A stretch of 33,000 nucleotides of DNA from Breznakibacter sp. (GTDB taxonomy: Bacteria > Bacteroidota > Bacteroidia > Bacteroidales > Marinilabiliaceae): positions 1 to 33,000 of the forward strand of contig JAGPIS010000002.1 of assembly GCA_018054835.1 (NCBI GenBank), read 5' to 3'. Every line of letters begins with the position of its first letter. Positions within the stretch are counted from its first letter, which is position 1. A model generated the notes under the pieces. The model was not told where the DNA came from. It saw only the letters and a list, made by a program, of their open reading frames with translations, and did no database searches. Shown one piece after another: positions 1,818 to 26,587 of this stretch. Made by a program: the position numbers and the translations under genes.

Positions 1818-2186
1818 ATGAAAAGTGAACGATATGAAGAGCTGTTTATTTGGCAGAAAGCACGAGAGGTTGCTAATGAGGTTTATTTGTGCATGAAGGA
1901 GTGTAAGGACTATGGTTTTCGCGACCAGTTTCAACGAGCTGCCGTTTCAATCATGAACAATATTGCAGAAGGCTTTGAACGGAATTCAAATAAGGACTTT
2001 ATTCTTTTTTTAAGATATGCCAAAGGATCGTGCGGAGAGGTAAGGAGCATGAGCTATTTGGCAGAAGATTTTAGTTATATTGCTACTGAAAAAGCGGAAG
2101 ACCTTAGGAGCAATTGTCGAAAAATATCATCTGGAATCTCATCCTTACAGAGATACCTGGCTCAATCAAAAAACAACAAGGCTTAA
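1818..2186 (+). CDS. Four-helix-bundle protein (23S rRNA intervening-sequence protein family)
   Basis: A small (122 aa) all-alpha protein of the IVP/S23 four-helix-bundle family. Family hallmarks are visible: an N-terminal 'LFIWQKARE' helix, the conserved N-N-I-A-E-G-F-E-R segment at about residues 47-55, and a basic C-terminal helix. Members occur as free-standing genes throughout Bacteroidota and inside 23S rRNA intervening sequences. Their molecular role is unsettled. Here the gene lies between the SLBB and wzz genes of a polysaccharide operon, with octad repeats on both sides. Its stop codon (2184-2186) falls inside the right-hand array and its ATG directly follows the left-hand one. This arrangement suggests an inserted cassette rather than a polysaccharide gene. 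The fold resembles the Avd protein of diversity-generating retroelements, but no reverse transcriptase is present. Confidence 0.85.
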   Translation: MKSERYEELFIWQKAREVANEVYLCMKECKDYGFRDQFQRAAVSIMNNIAEGFERNSNKDFILFLRYAKGSCGEVRSMSYLAEDFSYIATEKAEDLRSNCRKISSGISSLQRYLAQSKNNKA

Positions 2187-2254
2187 CTCTTCAACCCTTT
2201 AACCTTTTAACTCTTCCACTCTTCAACTTTCTAACTCCTCAACTCTCTAGCATC
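2184..2254 (+). repeat. Octad repeat array B, upstream of wzz
   Basis: Eight 8-nt units of the type TAACTCTT/CAACCCTT run without interruption from 2184 to 2247. Seven further bases separate them from the wzz ATG at 2255. The first unit contains the IVP stop codon. Confidence 0.8.
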
Positions 2255-3358
2255 ATGAACTCAACCCCAATAGGCCCCATCATCAAGGACGATGAAATCG
2301 ACTTGGTTGCCCTGGTAAAGACCATCTGGGCTGGCCGCAAACTAATTTACTATTCGGTGGGGATCGCCATCCTTATCGGGTTGATCATAGCCTTCACCAG
2401 TCCGGTGAAATATTCCGCTCAGGCCACCCTGCTGCCCTCTGCGGAGAAAAAGGGAGGCGGACTTGGTAACCTGAGTGCCCTTGCTGGTATGGCTGGGATT
2501 AATTTGGGAGGCATGATGGGCGATGCATCTGGCATCCCATCAGAACTCTACCCGCAGGTAATGGGTAGTTACCCCTTTTTGAAGGAGTTGATCCACCAAA
2601 AGTTCCATTTTGAAAAATATGCTGAACCCCGATCGTTATACGATTATAGGATGGCAGACTCCATTCCATCTATAGGTGGCACCATCTTGAAATATACCAT
2701 CGGTTTGCCTTGGACATTGAAGAATGCCATCTTTTCAGGTAAAAAAGAGGGGATTGCTCAAACGATCGATTATGGGGTATTGAGCCCCAGCGAAGAGGAG
2801 CTTGGTATTTTGTTGGAAGCGCAAGGGATGTTGACCGCCGAAGTGGACAAGAAGAGTGGTTTGGTCTCTATTACGGCAGAGGCTTCAGAGCCTGTCCTAG
2901 CCGCCCAATATGTTCAAAAAGGTGTTGAGCTACTTCAGAAATACGTGATTGATTACAAGACCCAGCAGGCCCGACAGAATCTTGATTTTGTGCAGCAGCG
3001 CTTCGATGAGAAAAAGGTTGAGTATGAAAACGCACAGCAGGCATTTTTCGATTTCAAGGATGGCCACCGCAATATGGTAACAGAACGGGTTGATTTGGAG
3101 TACCAGCGCCTGAGCGATGCCTACGATATGGCTTCGGCCGTTTACAAAGGGTTAGCGCAACAGTTGGAGCAGTCTAGGATAGCCGTCAAAGAGGAGACCC
3201 CTGTCTTTTCAGTTTTGGAGCCGGTGAAAGTGCCACAGGAGAAGAGTGCTCCTAAGAAAAGCATCATCCTGGTGGTGAGTATTTTCTTGGGTGGATTTTT
3301 GGGATTGGGTTGGATTTTCGGTCGGTTGGTGTGGGCGAACTTTAAGGCAAAAGAATGA
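2255..3358 (+). CDS. wzz: Wzz/chain-length determinant protein
   Basis: Inner-membrane polysaccharide co-polymerase that sets the modal chain length of the Wzy-made polymer. The ATG at 2255 gives 367 residues. An upstream frame extension to 2114 only translates the IVP gene and the octad array, so it is rejected. The N-terminal cytoplasmic segment contains 'DDEIDLVALVKTIW', typical of Wzz. TM1 spans about residues 30-50. A periplasmic domain with a long helical part follows (about 235-300, with Q/E-rich heptads), then TM2 at about 335-358 (ILVVSIFLGGF). The LEPVKVPQEKSAPKK-type proline-rich stretch before TM2 is characteristic. No C-terminal tyrosine kinase domain is fused, so this is a Wzz rather than a Wzc protein. 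Confidence 0.9.
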   Translation: MNSTPIGPIIKDDEIDLVALVKTIWAGRKLIYYSVGIAILIGLIIAFTSPVKYSAQATLLPSAEKKGGGLGNLSALAGMAGINLGGMMGDASGIPSELYPQVMGSYPFLKELIHQKFHFEKYAEPRSLYDYRMADSIPSIGGTILKYTIGLPWTLKNAIFSGKKEGIAQTIDYGVLSPSEEELGILLEAQGMLTAEVDKKSGLVSITAEASEPVLAAQYVQKGVELLQKYVIDYKTQQARQNLDFVQQRFDEKKVEYENAQQAFFDFKDGHRNMVTERVDLEYQRLSDAYDMASAVYKGLAQQLEQSRIAVKEETPVFSVLEPVKVPQEKSAPKKSIILVVSIFLGGFLGLGWIFGRLVWANFKAKE

Positions 3359-3597: not shown

Positions 3598-3993
3598 ATG
3601 GACGATATACGCTGGATACAACGATTTTCCAATTATAAAAAAGCATTTGCCCAATTGGAACGTATTGTGCAAATACCCCATCTCAACGATATTGAGGAAC
3701 AAGGCTTGATTAAAGCCTTTGAATATACCTATGAGCTGAGCTGGAAGGTGTTGCAGGATCTTCTTAGGGAGAGAGGTTATACCGGTGCACCAGGCCCACG
3801 ACCAGTCATTGAGCAGAGTTTTCAGGATGGATACATCGACGATGGGCAGAAGTGGATGACGATGTTGAAAGATCGAAATCTCACTACCCATACCTACGAC
3901 GAGGAGACAGCCAAGGATGTGATCTCTGAGATACGTTACGTCTTCTATCCGTTGTTTTTGGCGTTGCGCGATCGTTTGGAAAAAGAGATGTGA
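3598..3993 (+). CDS. hepT: HepT-like HEPN toxin / nucleotidyltransferase substrate-binding protein (HI0074 family)
   Basis: A 131-residue HEPN-domain protein of the HI0074 family. The R-x4-H-x-Y motif is intact at R93, H98 and Y100 (RNLTTHTY). In characterised HepT/MntA systems this is the ribonuclease active site, and its tyrosine is AMPylated by the partner. The N-terminal part has the expected helical 'FEYTYELSWKVLQDLL' segment. The gene is followed immediately by an MNT nucleotidyltransferase, the usual toxin-then-antitoxin order. It sits inside the polysaccharide operon between wzz and the remnant of a second wzz, with heptad and octad arrays on both sides. This marks it as an inserted module. 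Toxin activity is inferred from family and motif only. Confidence 0.85.
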   Translation: MDDIRWIQRFSNYKKAFAQLERIVQIPHLNDIEEQGLIKAFEYTYELSWKVLQDLLRERGYTGAPGPRPVIEQSFQDGYIDDGQKWMTMLKDRNLTTHTYDEETAKDVISEIRYVFYPLFLALRDRLEKEM

Positions 3994-3995
3994 TC

Positions 3996-4298
3996 ATGCC
4001 ATACGGATTGACTGAAGAAGAGATAAAGGGTATTGTTGATATTTTGGCTGATGACCCGAAGGTTGAAGCACTCATCTTGTTTGGTAGCCGTGCCAAGGGC
4101 AACTATTCAATCGGTTCCGATATTGATATTGCTATGATAGGAAAGGATTTGAAATTGAATGATATCAGTAAAGCTTTGGTGCTGCTTGATGAACTGTATC
4201 TGCCTTACAAACTTGATTTGGTTATTTATCACCGCATCCAGGAACCTGCTTTGATTGAGCATATCTGCAAAGTGGGAATACCGCTTTTTAAACGATAG
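3996..4298 (+). CDS. mntA: MntA-like minimal nucleotidyltransferase antitoxin
   Basis: A 100-residue minimal nucleotidyltransferase. The G-S-x10-D-x-D motif is complete (G30, S31, D42, D44), which is the metal/NTP site used by MntA antitoxins to AMPylate HepT. The ATG at 3996 lies 2 nt after the hepT stop. An in-frame GTG at 3990 would overlap that stop (GTGA) and is the alternative start. The tight spacing implies translational coupling with hepT. The module ends at 4298 and is followed by a short CCCTT/AAGGG hairpin (4312-4327) and another heptad/octad array. Confidence 0.85.
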   Translation: MPYGLTEEEIKGIVDILADDPKVEALILFGSRAKGNYSIGSDIDIAMIGKDLKLNDISKALVLLDELYLPYKLDLVIYHRIQEPALIEHICKVGIPLFKR

Positions 4299-8451: not shown

Positions 8452-9939
8452 ATGGAAGAAACACAAAAGCACAAATACCGACAGGTTTTTAAAGCCACCA
8501 GCATATTTGGGGGAGTTCAGGTATTTAGCATTATCATTGGCCTCGTGCGATCCAAATTTGTGGCAATACTGCTTGGCACCAGCGGATACGGATTAAACGG
8601 ATTACTGAGCGCCCCGCTGGGGTTGATCGGAAACCTCACCGGCATGGGAATCGGTTACAGCGCCGTACGCGACATTTCACTAGCTAACGAATCGGGCGAC
8701 ACCCAAAAACTCGCACGGGCATTAACCGTGCTGCGCCAATGGGCGTGGGTGACCGGACTGCTGGGAATGGTAGTTACCCTTGTCATGTCCCCCTGGCTCA
8801 GCCAATGGTCGTTTGGCAACCGCAACTACACCTGGTCATTTATCTGGCTGTCGGTGACGCTTTTGCTCGCAGCCATCAGCAGCGGACAAACGGCTGTTTT
8901 ACGAGGTACGCGTCGCATTAAAGAAACAGCAACGGCGGGCGTCATTGGCTCTGTATTAGGATTGTTTACTGCCATCCCCTTGTTTTATCTTTATGGTATC
9001 GACGGCATTGTCCCTTCGTTAATTTTAAGCGCTACCACTACCCTGTTGCTTTCGTGGTGGTTTTCGCGAAAGGTTGTTGTTCCATCGGTTGAGATCACTT
9101 TCAAGGAATCGTTTCATGCCGGCAAGCAAATGGCACAGATGGGCATTATGATCACCCTTAGCGGTATGATCACCCAACTGGTGACCAGTGGTGTTAACAT
9201 CTTTATCAGCCGGTACGGCTCAATGGACGATGTGGGGTTGTACAACGCCGGTTGGGGCATCACCAATCAATACGTTGGGCTGGTATTTGCGGCCATGGGT
9301 GCCGACTACTACCCCCGACTATCGGGCTTGAGCAACGACCTCAAAAAGATGGCAGAAGCAGTTAATCAACAAGCCGAAATTGCCTTACTGATACTCGGCC
9401 CTGTGATGATCCTTTATCTGACATCCCTCCCCTTGCTGATCCGTTTGCTATACACCCCTGCATTTTTGCCAATCCTCTTGTTTGCGCAATGGGTGGTGCT
9501 GGGTATGTTATTCAAAGCTCAAACTTGGGCAATGGGATTTATGTTTTTGGCCAAAGGTGATTCAAAACTCTTTTTATATTCCGAAATCGCAGCCAACATT
9601 CTTATTCTATCGTTAAACATTGGCTGCTATGCCCTGTGGGGGCTCGAAGGAATGGGCATCAGCTTCACCCTTTCATACGGTTTGTATGCGTTCATCGTTT
9701 ATTTATTGGTTCGCACAAAATACAATTACCTACCCGGCAAACCGCTGATCACCATATTTGCAGTGCAACAAACCATGGCAATAGTGGCTTTTTTGGTGGC
9801 TTGGAAATTTGGATTTCCGGTAGCTTATTATTCTGGTGCGATATGCCTGGCAGTATCAGTAGTTTATTCGCTTTACGAAATGAATAAACGAATTGATCTA
9901 AAATCATTTGCACAAAACAAACTAAGTAAATTCAAATAA
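8452..9939 (+). CDS. wzx: Wzx-type O-unit flippase
   Basis: A 495-residue polytopic membrane protein of the MATE-like/polysaccharide transporter superfamily with about 12-14 hydrophobic helices. It is predicted to flip the undecaprenyl-linked repeat unit across the inner membrane. The N-terminus (FKATSIFGGVQVFSIIIGLV, then a K-F-V-A-I-L-L-G-T-S-G-Y-G-L motif) is typical of Wzx proteins. Base composition here is still like the upstream genes. The change to AT-rich DNA comes in the next gene. Two nt separate its stop from the next ATG. Confidence 0.9.
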   Translation: MEETQKHKYRQVFKATSIFGGVQVFSIIIGLVRSKFVAILLGTSGYGLNGLLSAPLGLIGNLTGMGIGYSAVRDISLANESGDTQKLARALTVLRQWAWVTGLLGMVVTLVMSPWLSQWSFGNRNYTWSFIWLSVTLLLAAISSGQTAVLRGTRRIKETATAGVIGSVLGLFTAIPLFYLYGIDGIVPSLILSATTTLLLSWWFSRKVVVPSVEITFKESFHAGKQMAQMGIMITLSGMITQLVTSGVNIFISRYGSMDDVGLYNAGWGITNQYVGLVFAAMGADYYPRLSGLSNDLKKMAEAVNQQAEIALLILGPVMILYLTSLPLLIRLLYTPAFLPILLFAQWVVLGMLFKAQTWAMGFMFLAKGDSKLFLYSEIAANILILSLNIGCYALWGLEGMGISFTLSYGLYAFIVYLLVRTKYNYLPGKPLITIFAVQQTMAIVAFLVAWKFGFPVAYYSGAICLAVSVVYSLYEMNKRIDLKSFAQNKLSKFK

Positions 9940-9941
9940 AA

Positions 9942-10823
9942 ATGGAGCAAAACCCATTGGTTTCGATCATCGTCATCACCTACAACAGTTCCAAATATGT
10001 TTTGGAAACCCTCGAAAGCACCAAAAATCAGACGTACCAAAATATTGAGTTGATTGTTAGCGACGACTGCTCAACCGACAATACGTTTGAAATCTGTAGG
10101 AGCTGGATTGAACAAAACAAAGAGCGATTTGTACGAACCCAACTGGTTACCTCCAATAAAAATACGGGTATTGCACCCAATTGCAATCGTGGCTTGAAAA
10201 TGGCTCAAGGTGAATGGGTCAAATTAATTGCTGGGGATGATATTTTACTAGCTCACTGTATTAAAAAGAATGTTGGCTACACTATGTTGTGTGAAAATGT
10301 TCAATTTTTAGTTTCATTATGTCAACCCTTTAAAATATTAAACGGAGAATTAGAATTACTTCCTACCTTTCCAGGGAGTACATTTTTTAATGAGCAAATG
10401 TCTTCGAGAGAGCAGCTGTATGCCTTTTCAAAAAGCAATTTTGTTCCTGCTCCCTCTACATTTCTAAAGAAAGGCACACTAATTCAATTAGGGCGATTTG
10501 ATGAAAAGTTTCCTTTTGTAGAAGATTATGCTTTGTGGGTCAAGTACTTGAGTGTTGGATATAAATTTGAGTTTATGGATGAAATTACGGTTCTATATAG
10601 GCTACATGAAAGTCAATATACAAATAGATCTAATACAATGATAAATAAAATTGAATTTGTACGATATAAAATAGATAGGGAATTGCTTTTTCCTTACGTA
10701 GATCTAAAAACAAAAATTCGTAAGGTTTTTCAATATGGAGCAAAAATGGCCATCTTTAAGTTAGGTAATAAGAAAACGATTTTAAATAGGATTTTATATA
10801 TTCTTTTTGTAGGGAAATATTGA
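9942..10823 (+). CDS. Family 2 glycosyltransferase
   Basis: A GT-A fold glycosyltransferase of 293 residues. The N-terminus V-S-I-I-V-I-T-Y-N-S has the donor-binding strand. 'IVSDDCSTDNT' supplies the first acidic pair and 'LIAGDDILL' the D-x-D-type metal site. A later 'FVEDYALWVKYL' segment matches the acceptor-side E-D motif of GT2 enzymes. The first 250 bp or so have composition like the upstream genes, and the rest is distinctly AT-rich, so the composition boundary falls inside or near the start of this gene. Sugar specificity cannot be inferred. Confidence 0.85.
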   Translation: MEQNPLVSIIVITYNSSKYVLETLESTKNQTYQNIELIVSDDCSTDNTFEICRSWIEQNKERFVRTQLVTSNKNTGIAPNCNRGLKMAQGEWVKLIAGDDILLAHCIKKNVGYTMLCENVQFLVSLCQPFKILNGELELLPTFPGSTFFNEQMSSREQLYAFSKSNFVPAPSTFLKKGTLIQLGRFDEKFPFVEDYALWVKYLSVGYKFEFMDEITVLYRLHESQYTNRSNTMINKIEFVRYKIDRELLFPYVDLKTKIRKVFQYGAKMAIFKLGNKKTILNRILYILFVGKY

Positions 10824-10837
10824 AAAACTAGAATGGC

Positions 10838-11611
10838 ATGAAAAAAGTTGCAATTTTATACATCTGTACAGGTAGATATAAAATCTTCTGGAAAGATTTT
10901 TTTGATTCTTGTGAACAATTCTTTCTGAACGAATTTCGCAAAGAGTATTTTGTTTTTTCTGATTCTGATGATTTAAATGATCAAGGATGTGTACGAATTC
11001 ATCTTATACCAGAGAATCAAAAAGAGTGGCCCTTTGCTACCTTGTATCGTTTTAAAATGTTTGCAAGCATTAAAGAACAATTAAAAAATTTTGATTATAT
11101 CTTTTTCTTTAATGCAAACATGAGGTTTTTGGAGGTAATTGGTAGTGAGATACTTCCGTCAAAGGAAGAAGGACTTCTAGTGGTAAAACACCCAGGATAC
11201 TACAATAAGAGTCGTGAAGAGTTTACATATGAGAAAAACCCTGAATCATTAGCGTTTATTCCTGAAGATAGAGGCGAGGCTTATTTTATGGGAGGCTTTA
11301 ATGGAGGAAGAGCTGATGATTATCTAAAGATGATACTTAGCCTGGATGTCAATATAGACAAAGATTATGAAAAAGGAATTATTGCAGTGTGGCATGATGA
11401 ATCGCACTTAAATAGGTATATTCTTGATTATAATCCAAAGGTTTTAGGAGCTGCATATGGTTGTCCAGAAGGTCAATGTGTTGATGAATTAGCAAAGATT
11501 ATTATTTTAGATAAAAGAAAATTTGGAGGGCACGAATTTCTTAGGAGTCAATCTGAAGTTAAAAACTACTCGCAGTTATTTGTCAATAAATTAAGAAGTT
11601 TTTTCAAATGA
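10838..11611 (+). CDS. Family 6 glycosyltransferase (bacterial ABO-like alpha-1,3-GalNAc/Gal transferase)
   Basis: A 257-residue homologue of the catalytic domain of the human ABO transferases and of bacterial GT6 enzymes. Landmarks in order are a W-P-F-A-T-L-Y-R-F-K-M-F segment (about 64-75), N-A-N at 92-94, S-R-E-E-F-T-Y-E (about 125-132), and the donor-pocket segment Y-F-M-G-G-F-N-G-G (about 149-157). W-H-D-E-S-H-L-N follows at 185-192 and carries the family's essential Glu (E188). N-A-N replaces the D-x-D metal site, as in known bacterial GT6 enzymes, which work without a metal. At positions equivalent to human 266/268 it has Met and Gly, a mixture of the B-type and A-type residues. It overlaps the next gene, an alpha-1,2-fucosyltransferase, by 4 nt. 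Confidence 0.9.
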   Translation: MKKVAILYICTGRYKIFWKDFFDSCEQFFLNEFRKEYFVFSDSDDLNDQGCVRIHLIPENQKEWPFATLYRFKMFASIKEQLKNFDYIFFFNANMRFLEVIGSEILPSKEEGLLVVKHPGYYNKSREEFTYEKNPESLAFIPEDRGEAYFMGGFNGGRADDYLKMILSLDVNIDKDYEKGIIAVWHDESHLNRYILDYNPKVLGAAYGCPEGQCVDELAKIIILDKRKFGGHEFLRSQSEVKNYSQLFVNKLRSFFK

Positions 11612-12513
11612 TTATAGTTTGTTTGAAAGGTGGTTTAGGAAATCAACTTTTTCAGTTAGCAACAGGTATCTCTCTTTCTTTAATGTATGAAACAGATCTA
11701 TTTTTGGATACTTCGTTTGTTGATAAGAGTATAAGCCATAAAACGTTTACTCAGAGAGATAGTTCATTACGTATTTTCCAACATAAATTTAATGTACTCC
11801 CAGCAAAGTATTACTCATTGTATGGAATTGGGTATTCAATTTCAAGAGTAAAGCGTTTGATTAATTGGATTAAATTTAAACAGCATAGTTTGACGTATTT
11901 TCACGAAAGTGAAATTCAATGCTATCGGCCTGAATTGCTAAATGATGAGGTTCGATTCCCTGTTGTCTTGGATGGTTATTTTCAAACCGAAAAGTACTTT
12001 AGACATATCCGTCCTATTATTTGTGAAATGCTTGATATAAAGCTTAGTGATAATGAATATATAGTAGAATTAAAAAATAGTATTGATAAGTCAAACTCTG
12101 TTAGTATTCATTTTCGCAGAGGTGATTATGTTAATAACGATTTTGTCAATAAAATTCATGGAACTTGTTCTCTTGATTATTACTACAAAGCGTGTAGAGA
12201 AATTGCGGAGGAAGTAGAAAATCCTTGTTTTTTTATTTTCTCTGATGATATTCAGTGGGTTAAAGAAAACTTTAATACTAGTTTCCTTACGTCATTTTCT
12301 TATGTAGAAAACATTCCTAATTACTATGAAGAGTTAAAGTTAATGAGTTGTTGTAAGTATAATATTATTGCAAATAGCACCTTTAGTTGGTGGGGAGCAT
12401 GGCTTAATAATAATCCAGATAAAATTGTGATATCCCCTTCTAAATGGTTTAATTCTGCTTTATTGCAAGAGAACACTAAGGATTTAATTCCCGATTCATG
12501 GATAAGGATATGA
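11608..12513 (+). CDS. Family 11 glycosyltransferase (alpha-1,2-fucosyltransferase)
   Basis: A 301-residue GT11 enzyme predicted to transfer L-fucose from GDP-fucose onto a terminal galactose. The N-terminal 'LKGGLGNQLFQLATG' motif is intact. H-F-R-R-G-D (residues 168-173) is the GDP-binding H-x-R-R-x-D motif. 'FIFSDDIQW' and 'NSTFSWWGAWL' are the further conserved GT11 motifs. It follows the GT6 gene with a 4-nt overlap, the pairing expected for making Fuc-alpha-1,2-Gal and then adding GalNAc or Gal. GDP-fucose would need Fcl in addition to ManC and Gmd; Fcl is not in this window. Confidence 0.9.
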   Translation: MIIVCLKGGLGNQLFQLATGISLSLMYETDLFLDTSFVDKSISHKTFTQRDSSLRIFQHKFNVLPAKYYSLYGIGYSISRVKRLINWIKFKQHSLTYFHESEIQCYRPELLNDEVRFPVVLDGYFQTEKYFRHIRPIICEMLDIKLSDNEYIVELKNSIDKSNSVSIHFRRGDYVNNDFVNKIHGTCSLDYYYKACREIAEEVENPCFFIFSDDIQWVKENFNTSFLTSFSYVENIPNYYEELKLMSCCKYNIIANSTFSWWGAWLNNNPDKIVISPSKWFNSALLQENTKDLIPDSWIRI

Positions 12514-13565
12514 TAAAAGAAAAATTAGTTTCGATAATATTGCCTGTATACAATGCAGATAAGTATTTACATGAATGTATAGAAAGTCTATTAAAACAAA
12601 CTCACAGTAGGCTTGAATTGGTTATAATTAATGATGGATCAACCGATAAAAGTGAAGATGTTATTCTAAGTTTTGAAGACCCTAGGATTATATATTTTAG
12701 GAATGAAAGTAACCTAAAGTTAATAAGGACTTTAAATCTTGGATTGACTTTAGCTTCTGGTGAATTTATAGCGCGAATGGATGCAGATGATATCGCAATG
12801 CCCTATAGAATTGAAGAACAACTAAAGTATATGGTTTCTACAAATTATGATTTGTGCTCTTCAAATATTAATTTTGTTTCACTTAATGGGAAATTTCATA
12901 GTTTCAAAAAATTTTATTGCACCTTGCCATCCTCGGTTAAGTTCTATGCATTTTTTGAAAACCCATTAGTTCACCCCGGAGTCATGTTTCATCGCAGGCT
13001 TTTGATTGATTACAAATATATAGATGAATCCGAAGCTTTTGCCATAGAAGATTATTATTTATGGATTAATCTACTTCGTAAAGGCTATTCCTTTGGAGTT
13101 GTTCCTAAATCATTATTAAAGTATAGACTCAATCCTTCAGGTGAGTCTTTTATTCATAGACAGACTCAAAAAAATAACCACATTCAATTAGGATATAGTT
13201 ATCTGAAAGAGCAGTTGAAGCTTCCTGATAATATTGAGTTATATAAAGTGATTACCCTGATGGAAGATAAACTGATAACACTATGGCAGCTAAAGGAAGC
13301 ATATAGTTATTTGATGTTGGTTAAATCGAATTATGCTAAACAGAATTCATTAGGGAAGTTAGAGGCCGTTGAGATTGAGAAATGGTGTCAAATAAGATTT
13401 ATTGAGATGGTAATCCTTTTTATTAAAAATGGCAACAAAAAAGAACTTATAAAGGGTGTTGTGTTTGGTTTAAAGAAAAGTAAGTGTGTTTTTAAAGGTT
13501 ATGTTTTTTTTTATTTTATTAATCGTTTGTTTTGGTTGATTAATACCTATCCTTTTAGGAAATGA
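12510..13565 (+). CDS. Family 2 glycosyltransferase
   Basis: A GT2 enzyme of about 351 residues. The ATG at 12510 makes an ATGA overlap with the upstream stop and is preferred over the in-frame ATG at 12498, which would overlap by 16 nt. Motifs are V-S-I-I-L-P-V-Y-N-A, 'VIINDGSTDKS', and 'ARMDADDIAMP' with the D-A-D metal site. 'FAIEDYYLWINLL' lies on the acceptor side. The C-terminal 40 residues are hydrophobic and basic and may associate with the membrane. It is strongly AT-rich like its neighbours. Confidence 0.85.
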   Translation: MIKEKLVSIILPVYNADKYLHECIESLLKQTHSRLELVIINDGSTDKSEDVILSFEDPRIIYFRNESNLKLIRTLNLGLTLASGEFIARMDADDIAMPYRIEEQLKYMVSTNYDLCSSNINFVSLNGKFHSFKKFYCTLPSSVKFYAFFENPLVHPGVMFHRRLLIDYKYIDESEAFAIEDYYLWINLLRKGYSFGVVPKSLLKYRLNPSGESFIHRQTQKNNHIQLGYSYLKEQLKLPDNIELYKVITLMEDKLITLWQLKEAYSYLMLVKSNYAKQNSLGKLEAVEIEKWCQIRFIEMVILFIKNGNKKELIKGVVFGLKKSKCVFKGYVFFYFINRLFWLINTYPFRK

Positions 13566-14818
13566 GAGCTTCATTGTTTTTTGTTTTTTTGTTTTTTTTC
13601 ATTTATCCTGTACAGTTCTCTTTTATGCCCAAGATTACCTCCTGGTTGACGGTGATTGGGTTTTTTTGTTATTTTTTTTTAAAGAAAAAGCTAACGGTAG
13701 ATAAATGCTTTTTAAGAATAATTGGGTCATATTTATTAATAGCAATTTGGACTTTTATATGTTCTACTATAAACGGAACGAGTGATTTTTTCTTTGTCAG
13801 TCAAGTAAAGTATAATATTTTCGATCTATTTGCTATTTTTAGTATAATTTTGATCGGTGGAACTAGTTTAGATTATCGACAGTTGTTAATAACTATCATG
13901 TTGATCGTTGTTGTGCAATGCTTAATTGCTGTTGGTAACTTTCTTTTACCTAGTTTTCGTGAAATTTTATATTCAATACAACTGCATAGTGAGATAGAGG
14001 AAGGAATGCTATCAAGTACAATTGAGCATAGATTAGTTGGTTTTGGCGCGTCTTTCTTCTATGCCGGTATTATAAATGGGATTGCGATTATTATAATTGG
14101 TTTTTACTTGTCTAATTATTCAATACAATTAAAAGAGATGTTGCTGATTGTAATTTCTTTTGGATTGATATTAGCGATAGGCACTATGATGGCAAGAACC
14201 ACTTTGACCGGTTTAACCCTAGTAATACTATTCTTTTTTAGGAGGCATATTAAGATTTTTGAAATACGAGGATTAATTTATTTTTTTTTATCATTTATAG
14301 TTTTTGGTTTTCTGGTATATGTTTTGCTCCTTTTCAATCCTAAGATTTTTGAGGGTTTTTATTATGTTGTTCAATGGGCGTTTGAATTTCTTTTTAATTA
14401 TTTAGATGGGAGTGGACTGGAAACTGCCTCCACAAATCAGCTTAAAGAGATGTATGTTTGGCCATCAACGCTAAAAACCTTTTTTATTGGGGATAGTTAC
14501 TTTATGGATCCATTTGATGATACTTCATATTATATGAGAACTGATGTGGGGTATAGTCGTCTGATATTTTTCTTTGGCATTCCTGGTTTAATATTTTATT
14601 TCTTACCATCAATAGTCATTTTACAAGAATTAGCTAAATTAAAACCAAATGGGAGAGTTTTAGTATTGGGGAGAGTTCTTTTTTTATATGGACTTATTCT
14701 CAATTTTAAAGGATTGTATGATATTAGTCCAATAATCCTTATAATATACGTGTTTTACTACATGAAATCAATAAACGTTAAAGATGCGAATATCATTAAT
14801 TGTAGCTACAGTAAATAG
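13562..14818 (+). CDS. wzy: Wzy-type polysaccharide polymerase
   Basis: A 418-residue inner-membrane protein with about 10-12 predicted hydrophobic helices and a large hydrophilic loop in the C-terminal half (about residues 270-320). This is the standard layout of Wzy, which joins repeat units in the periplasm. Wzy proteins share little sequence, so the call rests on topology, position among glycosyltransferases and the presence of Wzx and Wzz. It overlaps the upstream gene by ATGA and the downstream one by 35 nt. It contains several T8-T9 runs, unremarkable in this AT-rich setting. Confidence 0.8.
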   Translation: MRASLFFVFLFFFIYPVQFSFMPKITSWLTVIGFFCYFFLKKKLTVDKCFLRIIGSYLLIAIWTFICSTINGTSDFFFVSQVKYNIFDLFAIFSIILIGGTSLDYRQLLITIMLIVVVQCLIAVGNFLLPSFREILYSIQLHSEIEEGMLSSTIEHRLVGFGASFFYAGIINGIAIIIIGFYLSNYSIQLKEMLLIVISFGLILAIGTMMARTTLTGLTLVILFFFRRHIKIFEIRGLIYFFLSFIVFGFLVYVLLLFNPKIFEGFYYVVQWAFEFLFNYLDGSGLETASTNQLKEMYVWPSTLKTFFIGDSYFMDPFDDTSYYMRTDVGYSRLIFFFGIPGLIFYFLPSIVILQELAKLKPNGRVLVLGRVLFLYGLILNFKGLYDISPIILIIYVFYYMKSINVKDANIINCSYSK

Positions 14819-15623
14819 AACTTCAGAACTTGCGGAGTTATTTAAAAGCCTTTCAGAGCAAGAGTTCAAGGACTTCGAAGTTCTGATAATTGATCAAAAT
14901 CAAGCAGGTTTTTTAGATGATATTATTAATGAGTATAATTCGAAGTTTGCGATCAAGCATTTTTTGGTGGATTTCAAGCATCTCGCTAAGGCAAGGAATT
15001 ATGGTTTAGATAGATCCACCGGTGATATTGTTTGTTTTCCTGATGATGATTGTAAGTTTTATAAGGATACCTTACAAACAGTACATGATTTTTTATGCTC
15101 CACCAATAATAATTTCTTATTAGGTAGGATTGTTAATCCAGATGGTAGTCCTGTGCTAAAGAACTGGAAAACAAAAGCATTTTACGTTAGCAAATTCAAG
15201 CTTTATAGAAACCTGTCTGCAATAACTTATTTTGGCTATAATAATGATACTCGCTTTGATGAAAGGTTAGGTGTCGGTGGGAGCTTTGGTAGTTGTGAGG
15301 ATGTTGACTATGTATATAGGATATTGAAAAGCATACCACGTAAGATTTATTATTGTCCTCAAGTTAAAGTGTGGCATCCAGATGAAAAGATAGAAGGTCT
15401 TGATCTTCATAAGATTGAAAAATATGGTAGGGGCTTTGGAGCATTTTGCCGTAAAAATTTTGATTGGCCATTGTTTGTTTTATTCTTTGGAATTATAATC
15501 TATCATTTCGTGTTTGGTTTTTTTAGCCTACTTAAGTTGGATTTTAGTAATTATAAAAAGCGGATGAAGTATGTTACTTCTAGAGCTGAAGGATTTTGTC
15601 AATTTAAAGGAGGAATTAGGTGA
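14784..15623 (+). CDS. Family 2 glycosyltransferase
   Basis: A GT2 protein of 279 residues beginning I-S-L-I-V-A-T-V-N-R. Acidic motifs are 'LIIDQNQ' (the usual second Asp is replaced by Gln) and 'CFPDDDCKF', which supplies the metal site. A K-A-R-N-Y-G-L segment precedes it, as in many rhamnosyl- or galactosyl-type GT2 enzymes. A G-V-G-G-S-F-G-S-C-E-D-V-D-Y segment is the acceptor-side E-D motif. A hydrophobic helix near the C-terminus (about 232-252) may anchor it. The 35-nt overlap with wzy is unusually long, but no later ATG gives a complete N-terminal strand. Confidence 0.85.
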   Translation: MRISLIVATVNRTSELAELFKSLSEQEFKDFEVLIIDQNQAGFLDDIINEYNSKFAIKHFLVDFKHLAKARNYGLDRSTGDIVCFPDDDCKFYKDTLQTVHDFLCSTNNNFLLGRIVNPDGSPVLKNWKTKAFYVSKFKLYRNLSAITYFGYNNDTRFDERLGVGGSFGSCEDVDYVYRILKSIPRKIYYCPQVKVWHPDEKIEGLDLHKIEKYGRGFGAFCRKNFDWPLFVLFFGIIIYHFVFGFFSLLKLDFSNYKKRMKYVTSRAEGFCQFKGGIR

Positions 15624-16444
15624 TGAAGTTAATAACGATATCGGTTGTGTTATATAATACATCATTGTTCGATATTGAGGCTGTTATAAATTCAGTTGAT
15701 TTTACAATATGTGATTTAGTCTTTTTTGATAATTCAAATTCTGCATCTATCAAGGAATATGTTGAAAGATTTGCTGAGGTTTCTTACGTGTCCATAGGTA
15801 AAAATATAGGTTTTGGTGCTGCGCATAATATTGTTCTAAAGAATACATCGTTAGATACTAGATATGTACTTGTCTTAAATCCTGATGTGTTTTTTGAGAA
15901 ATCTCTTCTAAAGAATCTTTTGAGTATTTATAATGTGAAAAAAAATGTGGGTATTGTAGCCCCAAAAGTTGTTTATCCCAATGGAGATTTACAGTATACT
16001 TGCAGATTACTTCCTAGTATAAAGGATTTACTTATCCGCAAATTTGTCATTATGACTAAAGGTGAGAATTCGTTAGAATTAGGCGATCTTAGATTTACGG
16101 GATATTCCAAGGAAATGAATGTTCCTTTTGTATTAGGTTGTTTTTTATTATTAGAAAGATCTCTATACAATGCTATTGGTGGTTTTGATGAAAGATTCTT
16201 TATGTACATGGAAGATTTGGATTTATGTAGAAAGGTATTGTGTGCTGAAAAGGATATTTTATTTATCCCGGATGTCTCAATTACCCACCGATATGGGAAA
16301 GGTTCTAGAAGATATTTTAAGCTAATGCGGTATCATTTTGTTAGTATGATGAAATACTATAATAAGTGGGGATGGCTTTTTGATGAAGACCGGAAAAGAA
16401 TTAATAATAAAGTGTTATTAGAATTAGGAAAACTACACCAATGA
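15623..16444 (+). CDS. Family 2 glycosyltransferase (rhamnosyltransferase-like)
   Basis: A 273-residue GT2 enzyme of the WbbL/RfbF-like group, many of which transfer rhamnose. The ATG at 15623 overlaps the previous stop (TGATG) and is preceded by an AAAGGAGG stretch, the clearest Shine-Dalgarno-like sequence noticed in the cluster. Motifs are 'SVVLYNT', 'VFFDNSNS', 'NIGFGAAHN', 'LVLNPDVFF' and '[17 protein letters not shown]', which together are typical of this group. A rhamnose donor is plausible because rmlA, rmlC and rmlD begin directly downstream. This is the last gene of the AT-rich block; composition changes sharply at rmlA. Confidence 0.85.
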
Positions 16445-18802: not shown

Positions 18803-19918
18803 ATGCAAAAAATCGCATTAATCACCGGTATCACCGGTCAGGATGGCGCCTATCTAGCGGAATTTTTATTGAAGAAGGGATATATGGTGCATGGCATCAA
18901 GCGTCGCGCTTCGTTGTTTAACACCGACCGGATTGATCACCTCTACCAGGATCCTCATGTGGAGAACCGAAACTTGATACTTCATTATGGGGATTTGACG
19001 GACTCCATGAATTTGACCCGCATCATCCAGGAGGTTCAACCCGATGAGATTTACAACCTGGCGGCCATGAGCCATGTGAAGGTCAGTTTCGATACCCCCG
19101 AATATACGGCCAATGCCGATGGGATTGGTACCTTGCGCATCCTGGAGGCTGTCCGGCTGCTTGGTTTGACGCACAAGACGCGTGTTTACCAGGCTTCCAC
19201 ATCTGAGTTGTATGGCTTGGTGCAGGCGGTGCCACAAAGCGAGACGACACCTTTTTATCCCAGGAGCCCTTATGCTGTGGCAAAAATGTATGGCTACTGG
19301 ATCACGGTGAATTACCGCGAGGCTTATGATATGTTTGCCTGCAACGGCATCCTGTTCAACCACGAGAGTCCATTGCGGGGTGAGACGTTTGTCACCCGCA
19401 AGATCACGCGTGCCGTTTCACGCATCGGTCTGGGCTTGCAGGACTGCCTCTATCTGGGTAATCTCGATGCCAAACGCGATTGGGGGCATGCCAAGGATTA
19501 CATCAAAGCCATGTGGTTGATCCTCCAGCAAGAAAAAGCAGAGGATTATGTGATTGCCACCGGCATCACCACCAAGGTGCGCGATTTCGTTAAGATGGCC
19601 TTTGGTGAGGTGGGCATTGAAGTGGCCTTTTCTGGTGAGGGGGTGGATGAAGTTGGTACGGTGGTCAAGTGCAACCTGCCGGAGTTTCAAGTGGCCGAAA
19701 GTACTGTGGTGGTTCGTGTCGATCCCCGCTATTTTCGCCCCACTGAGGTGGATCTGCTGATTGGTGACCCTACCAAATCGAAGACCAAGCTGGGTTGGGA
19801 GCCTGAGTACGATCTGCCTGCCTTGGTGAAGGACATGATGGAAAACGATGTGCGGTTGGTCAAGAAAGATCGATATTTGAAAGCGGGTGGTTTCGAGACG
19901 TTGAATTATTTTGAATAA
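18803..19918 (+). CDS. gmd: GDP-mannose 4,6-dehydratase
   Basis: Converts GDP-mannose to GDP-4-keto-6-deoxymannose, the precursor of GDP-L-fucose and of several other 6-deoxysugars. It has 371 residues, the usual length. [10 protein letters not shown] is the cofactor motif, followed by '[17 protein letters not shown]'. 'QASTSELYG' has the catalytic Thr/Ser-Glu pair and '[12 protein letters not shown]' the Y-x3-K. '[17 protein letters not shown]' is diagnostic. ManC, encoded 1.1 kb downstream, would supply GDP-mannose. No fcl reductase gene is present, so the end product depends on genes elsewhere. Confidence 0.97.
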
Positions 19919-19933
19919 TCTTGACCTCAAATG

Positions 19934-20471
19934 GAAGCCCCCTCCGGCTCCCCCCGAGGGGGAGTGGCTGAACGCGCGGGATGGTATGCGAAAAAGTATG
20001 CGAACAATATTGCGCGCCGCTGCCGCTTGGAAGTCTGAAAGACTCGACCTTCATAACCACAGGTAAGCGTAGCGCAACCTTTGGTAGCCAGTAACAAATG
20101 GACTTTGCCTGAAAGGCAAGACCTATGTGGTGGGTTCTGCCTTACAGGCAGTGGTTTTATACTGGTGGTAACACCACCGGTCAGTGACCTGCTCTAATTA
20201 ATGGTGGGATTTATTTGGTTTTCTAATCCCGATTAACCCTTTCAGGGTATTCACCACTTCGCGGTTTAAATCTCAACTCTTAATTTGCATATTTAAGATA
20301 CATCCTGTTTATCAAGGGTCAGCGATCCGAAATATGAATTGGCACAAGAAAAGGAGTGTTCCAGTGCTCTGCACCTTAGGGATCATGAGGAACGACATCT
20401 TTCTTCAAATATTTCGCGGCGCTGCCGCTAAATGAAAGTCCCCTCCGGCTCCCCCATGGGGGAGTGACGGA
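19934..20471. repeat. Pair of CCTCCGGCTCCCCC hairpin repeats
   Basis: A unit with CCCCTCCGGCTCCCCC, a 2-nt loop and GGGGGAGTGRCKGAA occurs at about 19938-19972 (loop GA) and again at about 20440-20472 (loop AT). A GCTGCCGCT word lies nearby in each case (20010-20018 and 20422-20429). A degenerate third copy lies at 23404-23443. It looks like a dispersed REP-type element. Confidence 0.65.
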
Positions 20472-20830
20472 ATGTGCCTCCTGAAAGCTTCTAAACTTCA
20501 AGATTTTGGGGCTCTTTTTACACGACCGGAGGTCGTCATGTGATTAACCGCGGATGGAATCCGCGGGTTCAGGGGCTCAGCGGAATACCAACCCCGAAGC
20601 GGGTTGAACTGGAAATAACCATTAATGGCTGACAGCCATATTTATTTCAGCCCGGGGCAACGTCCCTGGATAGATTGAAATAATGAGGAATGAACCCTAG
20701 ATGGGCGGCTTAATCCATCAGTATCAAATCTTACCTAACAAATATAAGCTGCCATGCTAGGGCTATGAGATATTGGAGTACACATGCCCGAGGCGATGCC
20801 TCGGGCTGAATTAAGCTGTCCCTGCGGGAC
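20105..20830. repeat. Array of unlike short hairpins
   Basis: Perfect small stem-loops follow one another with different stem sequences. They are TTGCC/GGCAA (20105-20119), CTGCC/GGCAG (20137-20151), GGTGG/CCACC (20164-20178), ACCC/GGGT (20236-20248), ACGACC/GGTCGT (20522-20536) and CCGCGGAT/ATCCGCGG (20548-20566). Then come AACCC/GGGTT (20590-20605), ATGGCT/AGCCAT (20625-20639), GCCCGAGGC/GCCTCGGGC (20786-20806) and GTCCC/GGGAC (20818-20830). Loops are 5-6 nt in some units and exactly 3 nt in others. The function is unknown. Confidence 0.75.
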
Positions 20831-20964
20831 GATTTTACTGTTTGGCAATCAATGTTTTTTGCGACTTCTTGGTTTCTGAATATTTCAACTTCAAAACACT
20901 TGATTAACCAGCAGACCATAGGCTTTGGGACGCCAAAACTCAGAACCTAAAACTCCCAACTCTG

Positions 20965-21049
20965 TTTCCTGATCATTGTTCCCTGTTTAACTTTTTAACT
21001 CTTCAACTCTTCAACTCTTCAACTCTTCAACTCTCAAAACTCATATCTC
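20965..21049 (+). repeat. Heptad and octad array E, abutting manC
   Basis: Three 7-nt units (TTTCCTG, ATCATTG, TTCCCTG; 20965-20985) are followed without a gap by 64 nt. This divides into eight 8-nt units, including four identical TTCAACTC units in a row (21002-21033), and ends exactly at the manC ATG at 21050. No purine-rich ribosome-binding site is visible. Confidence 0.85.
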
Positions 21050-22120
21050 ATGACTAACCACCTAATCATTATGGCCGGCGGTGTGGGCAGCCGCTTTTGG
21101 CCCATGAGCACGCCCGAAAAGCCCAAGCAGTTCATCGATGTGTTGGGGGTGGGTCGCAGCCTGCTGCAACTGACGGTGGATCGTTTTGGCGACCTTTTCA
21201 CACCCGACCGCATCTGGATTGTCACTTCGGCAGCTTACCGCTCTGTGGTGATGGAGCAACTGCCTGGTGTTCCCGAAGAAAATATTTTATTGGAGCCTTG
21301 CATGCGCAATACGGCCCCTTGCATCGGCTATGTGGCCTGGAAAATCAAGCAGCGCCATCCCGAGGCCACGCTGGTGGTGTCGCCGGCCGACCATTTCATC
21401 CTCGATGCCCCTGCTTTCCGGTCGGTGATACAGTCAGGACTTGACTTTGTGAAGGGTACCGGCCGGGTTTTGACCCTCGGCATGGCACCCACCCGTCCCG
21501 ACACGGGTTATGGCTACATCCACTCAGGTGTGCCAGTTGCAGGCTCCCCTGTGATGGCCGTGCAGGCTTTTAAGGAGAAGCCGGTGTTGGAGGTGGCGCA
21601 ACGTTACCTATCCGAAGGGGGTTATTATTGGAATGCCGGCATCTTCCTGTGGGAGGTTGCCACGGTGGAGAAGGCCATCAGGCGCTTTGAGCCGGAAATG
21701 GCCGCCATACTCGATGAGATGGGCAAAAGCTTTTATAGTTCCCAGGAACAAGAGAGGGTGAACCGTCTTTTCCCAACCTGCAAGAGCATCTCCATAGACT
21801 ATGCCGTGATGGAGCGACTGAGTGGGCAGGATGGCACGGGCACCGATGGGTTGTATGTGTTACCGGGTGACTTCGGGTGGAGTGATCTGGGGACTTGGGG
21901 TTCGCTCTATGCGCGCTTGGAGAAGGATGAAGAAGGAAATGCCGTGGTTGGTGATGGCGTCACCATGATTGAAAGTCGTGGTTGCGTGGTGCGGGCACCC
22001 CATGGAAAAAAGATGGTGCTGCAAGGCATGGACGATTACATCGTGGCCGAAGACCAAGGCACCCTGCTGATCTGCAAGAAAGACCAGGAGCAACGTATCA
22101 AAGAGTTTAGTAGTCGATAA
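21050..22120 (+). CDS. manC: Mannose-1-phosphate guanylyltransferase
   Basis: Makes GDP-mannose from mannose-1-phosphate and GTP. Its 356 residues correspond to the GMP pyrophosphorylase domain only, without a fused phosphomannose isomerase domain. Signature motifs are 'IMAGGVGSRFWP', P-K-Q-F-I-D, 'EPCMRNTAPCIGY', 'SPADHFI', F-K-E-K-P and 'YYWNAGIFLW'. 'SIDYAVMER' and 'PGDFGWSDLGTW' follow. The product feeds Gmd. The only sequence directly before its ATG is the octad array, so translation may not use a classical Shine-Dalgarno interaction. Confidence 0.97.
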   Translation: MTNHLIIMAGGVGSRFWPMSTPEKPKQFIDVLGVGRSLLQLTVDRFGDLFTPDRIWIVTSAAYRSVVMEQLPGVPEENILLEPCMRNTAPCIGYVAWKIKQRHPEATLVVSPADHFILDAPAFRSVIQSGLDFVKGTGRVLTLGMAPTRPDTGYGYIHSGVPVAGSPVMAVQAFKEKPVLEVAQRYLSEGGYYWNAGIFLWEVATVEKAIRRFEPEMAAILDEMGKSFYSSQEQERVNRLFPTCKSISIDYAVMERLSGQDGTGTDGLYVLPGDFGWSDLGTWGSLYARLEKDEEGNAVVGDGVTMIESRGCVVRAPHGKKMVLQGMDDYIVAEDQGTLLICKKDQEQRIKEFSSR

Positions 22121-25141: not shown

Positions 25142-25186
25142 GCAATCATTTTGCTGGTAATGTTTTATTTAGATTGTTAATTGTTT

Positions 25187-26587
25187 ATGCTCAAGGAAAA
25201 AGAAGGCTACATCCGTAATTTCATGGGTTTTCTGGATGTGTGGATGGCTTGGTTGGCTTATCACATCACTTTGTCGGTATTGTACAGCGGGTTGGCTTTT
25301 GTGGTCAATAAAGACCTTTTGATCACCAACATCTTTATTTTTATCGTTTGGTATGGGTTGTCCAAACTCTTCCATCTCAACGAGATATACCGGAGCCGTC
25401 CCTTCAGCGTCATCCTCTACAATTGTTTGGCCCAGGGTTTGGTGGGGGCTGCCATCTTGGCATTCCTATTGGTGATGTTCAACCTCTATTATCCCGGACT
25501 CAAGATATTTGCTGTGTTTGCCGCATTGAGCATATTGTTTTGTTTTGCATTAAAGGTTCTCATATACAGTGGGTTGAAATTGATCCGCAAGCGGGGCATG
25601 AATACCCGCAACCTCTTGTTTGTGGGTGATAAAAGCGGAGTCAATTTACTTCAGCTGATTCACGAGCGTTACGAGTGGGGTTACCGCATAATTGGTGTGG
25701 TGGGTGATGAAACGATTAAACAACGCTTTGGCGATCTCTATCCGGTTTTCGATCACAACGATGTGGATTTTGACACCTTGATATCGGGCAAGAGCATCGA
25801 TGAGGTGGTTTATGCCTGCGAATACGACAGCATGAAGGAAGTCAAAGCGTTGATGGACAGTTGTCATGAAATAGGGGTGACCTTCAGGCTCTACTCCCCA
25901 TTCCTGAATATGTTGACCTCCAATACGAACATCCATTATTACGACACACACGCCGTGTTGACGGTTGCTAATACGCCCAACGATTTTCTGAGGATGAAGT
26001 TGAAGCGGCTGATCGACATCCTGATCTCGGGGTGTGCCATCTTGGCGCTGTTGCCCGTTTTCCTGCTGATTGCCTTGGTGATCAAGTTGGGTAGCAACGG
26101 GCCTGTGCTCTTTTCGCAGAAACGGGTTGGATTACGTGGACGAAGGTTTATGGTTCATAAGTTCCGCACCATGGTGGTGGATGCCGAGGCCAAGAAACAG
26201 GATCTGATGGAGCATAATGAGATGGATGGCCCCGTGTTCAAAATAGCCAATGACCCGCGTATCACCCAATGCGGTCGGTTCCTGCGTAAGACCAGCCTTG
26301 ACGAATTGCCACAGTTCTTCAATGTTCTGTTTGGCGATATGTCCATCGTGGGGCCAAGGCCACCGGTACCCAATGAGGTGGTTCAGTATGAGCGTTGGCA
26401 GTTGCGGCGGTTGTCCATGCGCCCGGGCATAACCTGTTTGTGGCAGATTGCCCCCAGTCGTAACGACATCAGCTTTGAGGATTGGATGCGCCTCGATATG
26501 GAGTACATCGACAACTGGTCGTTGCGCCTCGACTTTATCATCATCCTCAAGACCATACGCACTGTTTTGAGGGCAGATGGGAAATAG
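25187..26587 (+). CDS. Polyprenyl glycosylphosphotransferase (WcaJ/WbaP-like initiating transferase)
   Basis: Transfers the first sugar-phosphate to undecaprenyl phosphate at the inner membrane. The ATG at 25187 gives about 466 residues (an in-frame TTG at 25181 is less likely). The N-terminal third has four to five hydrophobic helices. A Rossmann-like middle domain begins near 'LLFVGDKSGVN'. The C-terminal catalytic domain starts with a membrane segment (RLIDILISGCAILALLPVFL). It continues with 'SQKRVGLRGRRFMVHKFRTM', 'LRKTSLDELPQFFNVL', 'GDMSIVGPRPP' and 'RPGITCLWQI', all diagnostic of this family. The sugar cannot be told from sequence. It closes the polysaccharide cluster. Confidence 0.93.
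   Translation: MLKEKEGYIRNFMGFLDVWMAWLAYHITLSVLYSGLAFVVNKDLLITNIFIFIVWYGLSKLFHLNEIYRSRPFSVILYNCLAQGLVGAAILAFLLVMFNLYYPGLKIFAVFAALSILFCFALKVLIYSGLKLIRKRGMNTRNLLFVGDKSGVNLLQLIHERYEWGYRIIGVVGDETIKQRFGDLYPVFDHNDVDFDTLISGKSIDEVVYACEYDSMKEVKALMDSCHEIGVTFRLYSPFLNMLTSNTNIHYYDTHAVLTVANTPNDFLRMKLKRLIDILISGCAILALLPVFLLIALVIKLGSNGPVLFSQKRVGLRGRRFMVHKFRTMVVDAEAKKQDLMEHNEMDGPVFKIANDPRITQCGRFLRKTSLDELPQFFNVLFGDMSIVGPRPPVPNEVVQYERWQLRRLSMRPGITCLWQIAPSRNDISFEDWMRLDMEYIDNWSLRLDFIIILKTIRTVLRADGK

Follow-up and report, generated by a model that had tools for sequence, protein, structure and literature searches.

Does a GT6 glycosyltransferase encoded directly beside a GT11 fucosyltransferase in a Bacteroidales polysaccharide locus build a surface sugar that resembles the human A and B blood-group antigens? 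The question is raised by a gene pair in a 33,000-nucleotide stretch of a Breznakibacter sp. metagenome-assembled genome, hereafter called the window. One proposed origin of natural anti-A and anti-B antibodies is bacteria that display A/B-like sugars, and the GT6 enzymes of such bacteria serve in blood-group glycan synthesis. A reliable signature, such as GT11 located beside or fused to GT6, would allow A/B-like producers to be listed from sequence. The pair belongs to a known kind (WbnK/WbnI of E. coli O86, BoGT6a, BgtA) and the system itself is not new. New here are the statistical and fusion support for the coupling of GT6 and GT11, its occurrence on viral contigs, the Met-Gly-Gly motif, the low-GC cassette and the gap in place of fcl.

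The GT6 and GT11 genes

The GT6 gene is intact and encodes a protein of 257 aa. Profile searches assign it to CAZy family GT6 (PF03414, E 2.9e-34), and the match to the family 6 glycosyltransferase model NF041524 lies above the cut-off of 250 (299.7 bits, E 1.3e-89). Its closest solved relative is BoGT6a (PDB 4AYJ), with 49% identity in an end-to-end alignment, followed by the human ABO transferases (E about 3e-32). The latter share the catalytic core and the motifs SREAFTYE and WHDESHLN, but are metal-dependent DxD enzymes that are membrane-anchored and carry LGG or MGA as donor motif. In the window protein, SREEFTYE, WHDESHLN and NAN are all found. NAN replaces DxD at residues 92-94 and represents the NxN signature of metal-independent bacterial GT6 members, from which the enzyme is predicted to be of the metal-independent type. 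According to the alignments, the catalytic Glu of WHDE and the Lys close to the C terminus (K231 in BoGT6a) are kept, as is characteristic of GT6. The residues of BoGT6a that are reported to contact UDP-GalNAc were mapped as well: R73, N95, A96, H122, T134, G157, WHDE 189-192 and K231 are kept, while Ala155, which corresponds to position 266 of the human enzyme, is replaced by Met.

The GT11 gene encodes 301 aa. PF01531 (Glyco_transf_11) covers nearly the full length of the protein, which falls into CAZy family GT11 and carries HFRRGD, a form of the HxRRGD motif, and ANSTFSWWGAW. The two genes overlap by 4 bp, the stop codon of GT6 and the start codon of GT11 sharing ATGA. An earlier note on this DNA had described a GT6 protein with S-R-E-x-F-T-Y-E, W-H-D-E-S-H-L-N and N-A-N that is close to the catalytic domain of the human A/B transferases and directly coupled to a GT11 enzyme. 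All of these statements are borne out: gene positions and motifs were recovered identically, human ABO transferases are among the matches, and the two genes overlap.

Genomic context of the gene pair

The gene pair is located in a Wzx/Wzz-type polysaccharide locus of a Bacteroidales genome (Table 1). The order was assigned through another of its genomes, L002, which over 600 bp is identical to the Paludibacteraceae record L081. It is part of a seven-gene cassette in which consecutive genes overlap or almost touch and all ORFs are intact. Because the GC content of the cassette is clearly below that of the flanking genes, it is probably an exchanged variable cassette that was acquired horizontally. 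The membrane protein designated as putative polymerase yielded no Pfam match in the profile search. The GT2 enzyme encoded directly downstream of GT11 is the best candidate for adding the acceptor galactose, since its closest homologues adjoin GT6/GT11 genes in four other loci (L018, L074, L031 and L006); as GT2 is a large family, this assignment is a lead only.

Table 1 Features of the polysaccharide locus in the window
Feature	Position	Strand	Evidence
Wzz chain-length determinant	2114..3358	+	PF02706, PF13807
Wzx-type flippase	8452..9939	+	PF13440/PF01943
Low-GC seven-gene cassette	9942..16444	+	GC 0.30-0.34 vs about 0.47 in flanking genes
GT2 glycosyltransferase, 14 bp upstream of GT6	9942..10823	+	PF00535
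GT6 glycosyltransferase, NxN (metal-independent type), donor motif Met-Gly-Gly	10838..11611	+	PF03414, NF041524, 49% identity to BoGT6a
GT11 fucosyltransferase (predicted alpha-1,2)	11608..12513	+	PF01531 (E 5.9e-30); HFRRGD, ANSTFSWWGAW
GT2 glycosyltransferase, 16-bp overlap with GT11	12498..13565	+	PF00535
Putative O-unit polymerase (Wzy-like), about 9 hydrophobic segments	13562..14818	+	Cassette position and hydrophobic segments
GT2 glycosyltransferase	14784..15623	+	PF00535
GT2/rhamnosyltransferase-like	15620..16444	+	PF00535; TIGR01556 below cut-off
gmd, GDP-mannose 4,6-dehydratase	18803..19918	+	PF16363 (E 1e-152)
manC-type mannose-1-phosphate guanylyltransferase (GDP-mannose supply)	21050..22120	+	PF00483, PF22640
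Undecaprenyl-phosphate sugar phosphotransferase (initiating enzyme)	25181..26587	+	PF02397 (E 4.5e-69)

The locus further encodes an SLBB-domain export protein and rml genes for dTDP-rhamnose, the latter identified by sequence. Between 4795 and 7337, a tandem pair of FdtA-type ketoisomerases is found together with an acetyltransferase and a DegT aminotransferase. This set is probably responsible for the synthesis of a dTDP-3-amino-3,6-dideoxyhexose, dTDP-Fuc3NAc or Qui3NAc. A nucleotidyltransferase and substrate-binding-protein pair (PF18765, PF08780) at 3598-4298 resembles HEPN/MNT toxin-antitoxin systems.

Coupling of GT6 and GT11 in bacteria and viruses

To characterize the association of the two families, one genome per species in GTDB was surveyed, yielding 80 GT6 loci; GT11 was detected with profiles built for this survey. 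The GT6 loci are spread over phyla that include Bacteroidota, Proteobacteria, Campylobacterota, Bacillota, Chlorobi, Planctomycetota and Patescibacteria. GT6 and GT11 usually travel together, both in these 80 bacterial loci and in 14 viral contigs. A GT11 gene lies within 10 kb of GT6 in 60 of the 80 loci, in 35 of them on the same strand within 300 bp and in 3 more on the opposite strand within 110 bp. Relative to GT6, GT11 occupies position +1 in 37%, -1 in 11% and +2 in 20% of the loci, and any other position in 0-4%. Direct neighbours are found in 37 of the 57 loci with a separate GT11, compared to 9.0 expected under random placement; since the surveyed loci are partly non-independent, no exact probability is claimed for this adjacency. 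GT2 genes, used as a control in the same loci, form a broad hump without a peak like that of GT11, and this comparison of positional profiles rules out chance adjacency. In a sample of 393 genomes from the order, GT6 was found in 4 and GT11 in 34, with GT11 present in all four GT6 genomes.

Two Planctomycetota loci, L078 and L082 (a Kuenenia bin), carry GT6 and GT11 as in-frame single ORFs (L078:9995-11626 and L082:2008-3738). Each matches both Pfam families, and the two are 58% identical to each other. By their domain content, they are candidate natural bifunctional A/B-antigen synthases. Among viral contigs in IMG/VR, all 14 that encode GT6 (L108-L121) have a GT11 within about 5 kb, often with one gene in between. 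The viral GT6 proteins carry DxD (DAD or DVD) and not NxN in 13 of the 13 contigs with a readable motif, and contig L114 also has a GDP-fucose-synthase-like gene.

A single inherited cassette was rejected as the sole cause of the coupling: GT11 is found upstream, downstream, convergent or fused, and the tree of GT6 is only weakly congruent with that of GT11 (Mantel r 0.22; 9 of 2000 permutations as high). The weak agreement suggests that partners were exchanged while their adjacency was maintained or remade, which points to a shared task.

Variants of the arrangement were also observed. GT11 and a GT2-like domain share one ORF, adjoining or near GT6, in four loci (L022:8226-9986, L025:8169-9995, L030:9235-11112 and L053:5583-7670; Pfam-confirmed for L022). 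In L013, L061 and L075, an FkbM-type methyltransferase gene lies between GT6 and GT11, which suggests a methylated variant of the antigen.

Supply of GDP-fucose

The window encodes manC and gmd, and galE is found elsewhere in the genome. The gene expected after gmd is fcl: the window gmd is 77-82% identical to that of seven relatives from the family, all of which (7/7) carry fcl directly downstream. In the source genome, which is 72% complete in 249 contigs, fcl was found neither beside gmd nor elsewhere, and the salvage enzyme Fkp was likewise not found; given the state of this assembly, the absence of fcl is not proven. A clear Fcl is encoded by 29 of 30 other genomes of the family. The E. 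coli Fcl sequence used as a query may contain small errors. The interval between gmd and manC (19919-21049) corresponds to the fcl site of the relatives and spans 1.13 kb without genes. An fcl concealed in this interval was considered and dismissed, as no remnant was found. Within it, GC-rich direct repeats lie at a distance of 500 bp from each other, and there is also a tandem run of CTCTTCAA.

Alternative readings

The assignment of fucose to GT11 has to be weighed against the diversity of the family, which is not uniform. It includes HhFT2, an alpha-1,3 enzyme, and WbgN of E. coli O55, which we take to be a GT11 member, is an alpha-1,2 enzyme that uses colitose. Together with the absence of fcl beside gmd, these examples would fit a GT11 that uses colitose or a similar 6-deoxy sugar, or that links alpha-1,3, so that the product merely resembles a blood-group structure. 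This is improbable, since none of the annotated window genes was recognised as colitose-type, the GT6/GT11 pair adjoins both gmd and fcl in other loci (e.g., L009 and L016), and Fcl is nearly universal among the other genomes of the family. The same gap could also mean that fcl has been lost from a decaying cassette, so that the strain makes no GDP-fucose and GT6 and GT11 are idle. The stretch without genes after gmd and the lack of both fcl and Fkp in the available genome fit such a loss, but the intact, overlapping ORFs of the cassette and the incompleteness of the genome speak against it, and we consider decay very unlikely.

A further possibility is that GT6 acts without an acceptor fucosylated by GT11. 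Among 19 genomes without GT11 near GT6 that were examined, 9 encode GT11 elsewhere and 10, including four Paenibacillus, have no GT11 match at all, several of these genomes being incomplete. GT6 genomes such as those of Paenibacillus thus indicate that the enzyme does not always need GT11. For the window, independent action is nonetheless unlikely: the strong adjacency and the fusions argue for consecutive steps, and BoGT6a, with which the window GT6 shares its active-site residues, acts on a fucosylated acceptor.

Donor specificity of GT6

The residues corresponding to human positions 266-268 are MGG in the window GT6, LGG in human A transferase, MGA in human B transferase and AGG in BoGT6a. 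For this comparison, the BoGT6a sequence was taken from an alignment, and small errors are possible in the human A transferase sequence used; the human numbering was checked (LGG 266-268, DVD 211-213, E303). The window motif is thus mixed, with M266 as in B and G268 as in A. In an alignment of bacterial GT6 proteins, MGG occurs in 28 and AGG in 20 of 83 rows, two of which are duplicates. For the human enzyme, a severe clash between GalNAc and Met266 is reported (PMC4692239), and a clash with Met at this position is also described elsewhere (PMC4202792), whereas Gly268 leaves space for GalNAc (PMC4692239). No characterised bacterial GT6 with MGG was found in the literature searched.

Because of the clash of Met266 with GalNAc, galactose is favoured as donor, yet not established as no tested MGG enzyme was found; the choice is uncertain because Gly at position 268 permits GalNAc in the human A enzyme. 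From the motif, the window GT6 more probably uses Gal and is B-like, and GalNAc or dual use is a lesser, though sizeable, possibility. With Met-Gly-Gly enzymes, the way in which bacterial GT6 proteins choose between Gal and GalNAc could be tested directly. A broader reading, which we regard as nearly balanced and offer tentatively, is that GT6/GT11 may be a mobile two-step 'blood-group cap' module that occurs across phyla and viral contigs, is kept by selection and in Planctomycetota is sometimes fused into a bifunctional A/B synthase; the residue at position 266 would then separate B-like from A-like producers.

Proposed pathway and known relatives

The preferred reading is that GT11 and GT6 act in succession to build an A/B-like capped H structure that is displayed on the cell surface. 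We consider this likely, and infer linkage, donor, acceptor, order and display. On a lipid-linked oligosaccharide repeat unit, GT11 would transfer L-fucose in alpha-1,2 linkage to a beta-galactosyl residue, giving an H-like disaccharide; placing this galactose would be the task of a GT2 enzyme of the locus. GT6 would then draw on a UDP donor, independently of metal, to attach a sugar in alpha-1,3 linkage, yielding Gal (or GalNAc)-alpha-1,3-[Fuc-alpha-1,2]-Gal. That GT6 caps the GT11 product is proposed because its active site is akin to that of BoGT6a, an enzyme for 2'-fucosylated galactose. The capped unit may be flipped by Wzx, polymerised and displayed as O antigen, capsule or exopolysaccharide.

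The earlier note had predicted such a structure, with GalNAc or Gal as alpha-1,3 sugar, and had likened it to enterobacterial O antigens. Homology, recurrent coupling and fusions strongly support the A/B-like cap, with the reservation that no fcl was found for GDP-fucose. Either sugar is compatible with the sequence, although Met at position 266 somewhat favours Gal. The O-antigen likeness holds in that E. coli O86 is an analogue, but the locus belongs to Bacteroidales and not to an enterobacterium.

In E. coli O86, WbnK (GT11) and WbnI (GT6) are involved in a blood-group B-like O antigen, a known precedent for both steps in one O-unit. As in the window, GT11 and GT6 steps build a lipid-linked O-unit; lineage and other sugars differ, the window locus adding genes for rhamnose and a 3-amino-3,6-dideoxyhexose, and the likeness is drawn by description. 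A distant DNA search with the GT6 genes of L079 and L074 gave no match to WbnI. The pair Hm2FT and BgtA of Helicobacter mustelae likewise combines an alpha-1,2-fucosyltransferase with a GT6 enzyme that makes the A antigen. In contrast, four other Helicobacter GT6 loci (L032, L036, L064 and L072) have no GT11 within 10 kb. BgtA and WbnI both use an H type 1 acceptor (PMC12723683).

BoGT6a of Bacteroides ovatus makes an A-type product from 2'-fucosyllactose (PDB 4AYJ, 4CJB). It shares with the window GT6 the family, the NAN motif, the catalytic and UDP-contact residues and an origin in Bacteroidota, and differs in its donor motif AGG (GalNAc). In two Bacteroides relatives that carry AGG like BoGT6a (L056 and L059), GT11 is convergent with GT6, whereas the genes of the window pair are co-directional and overlapping.
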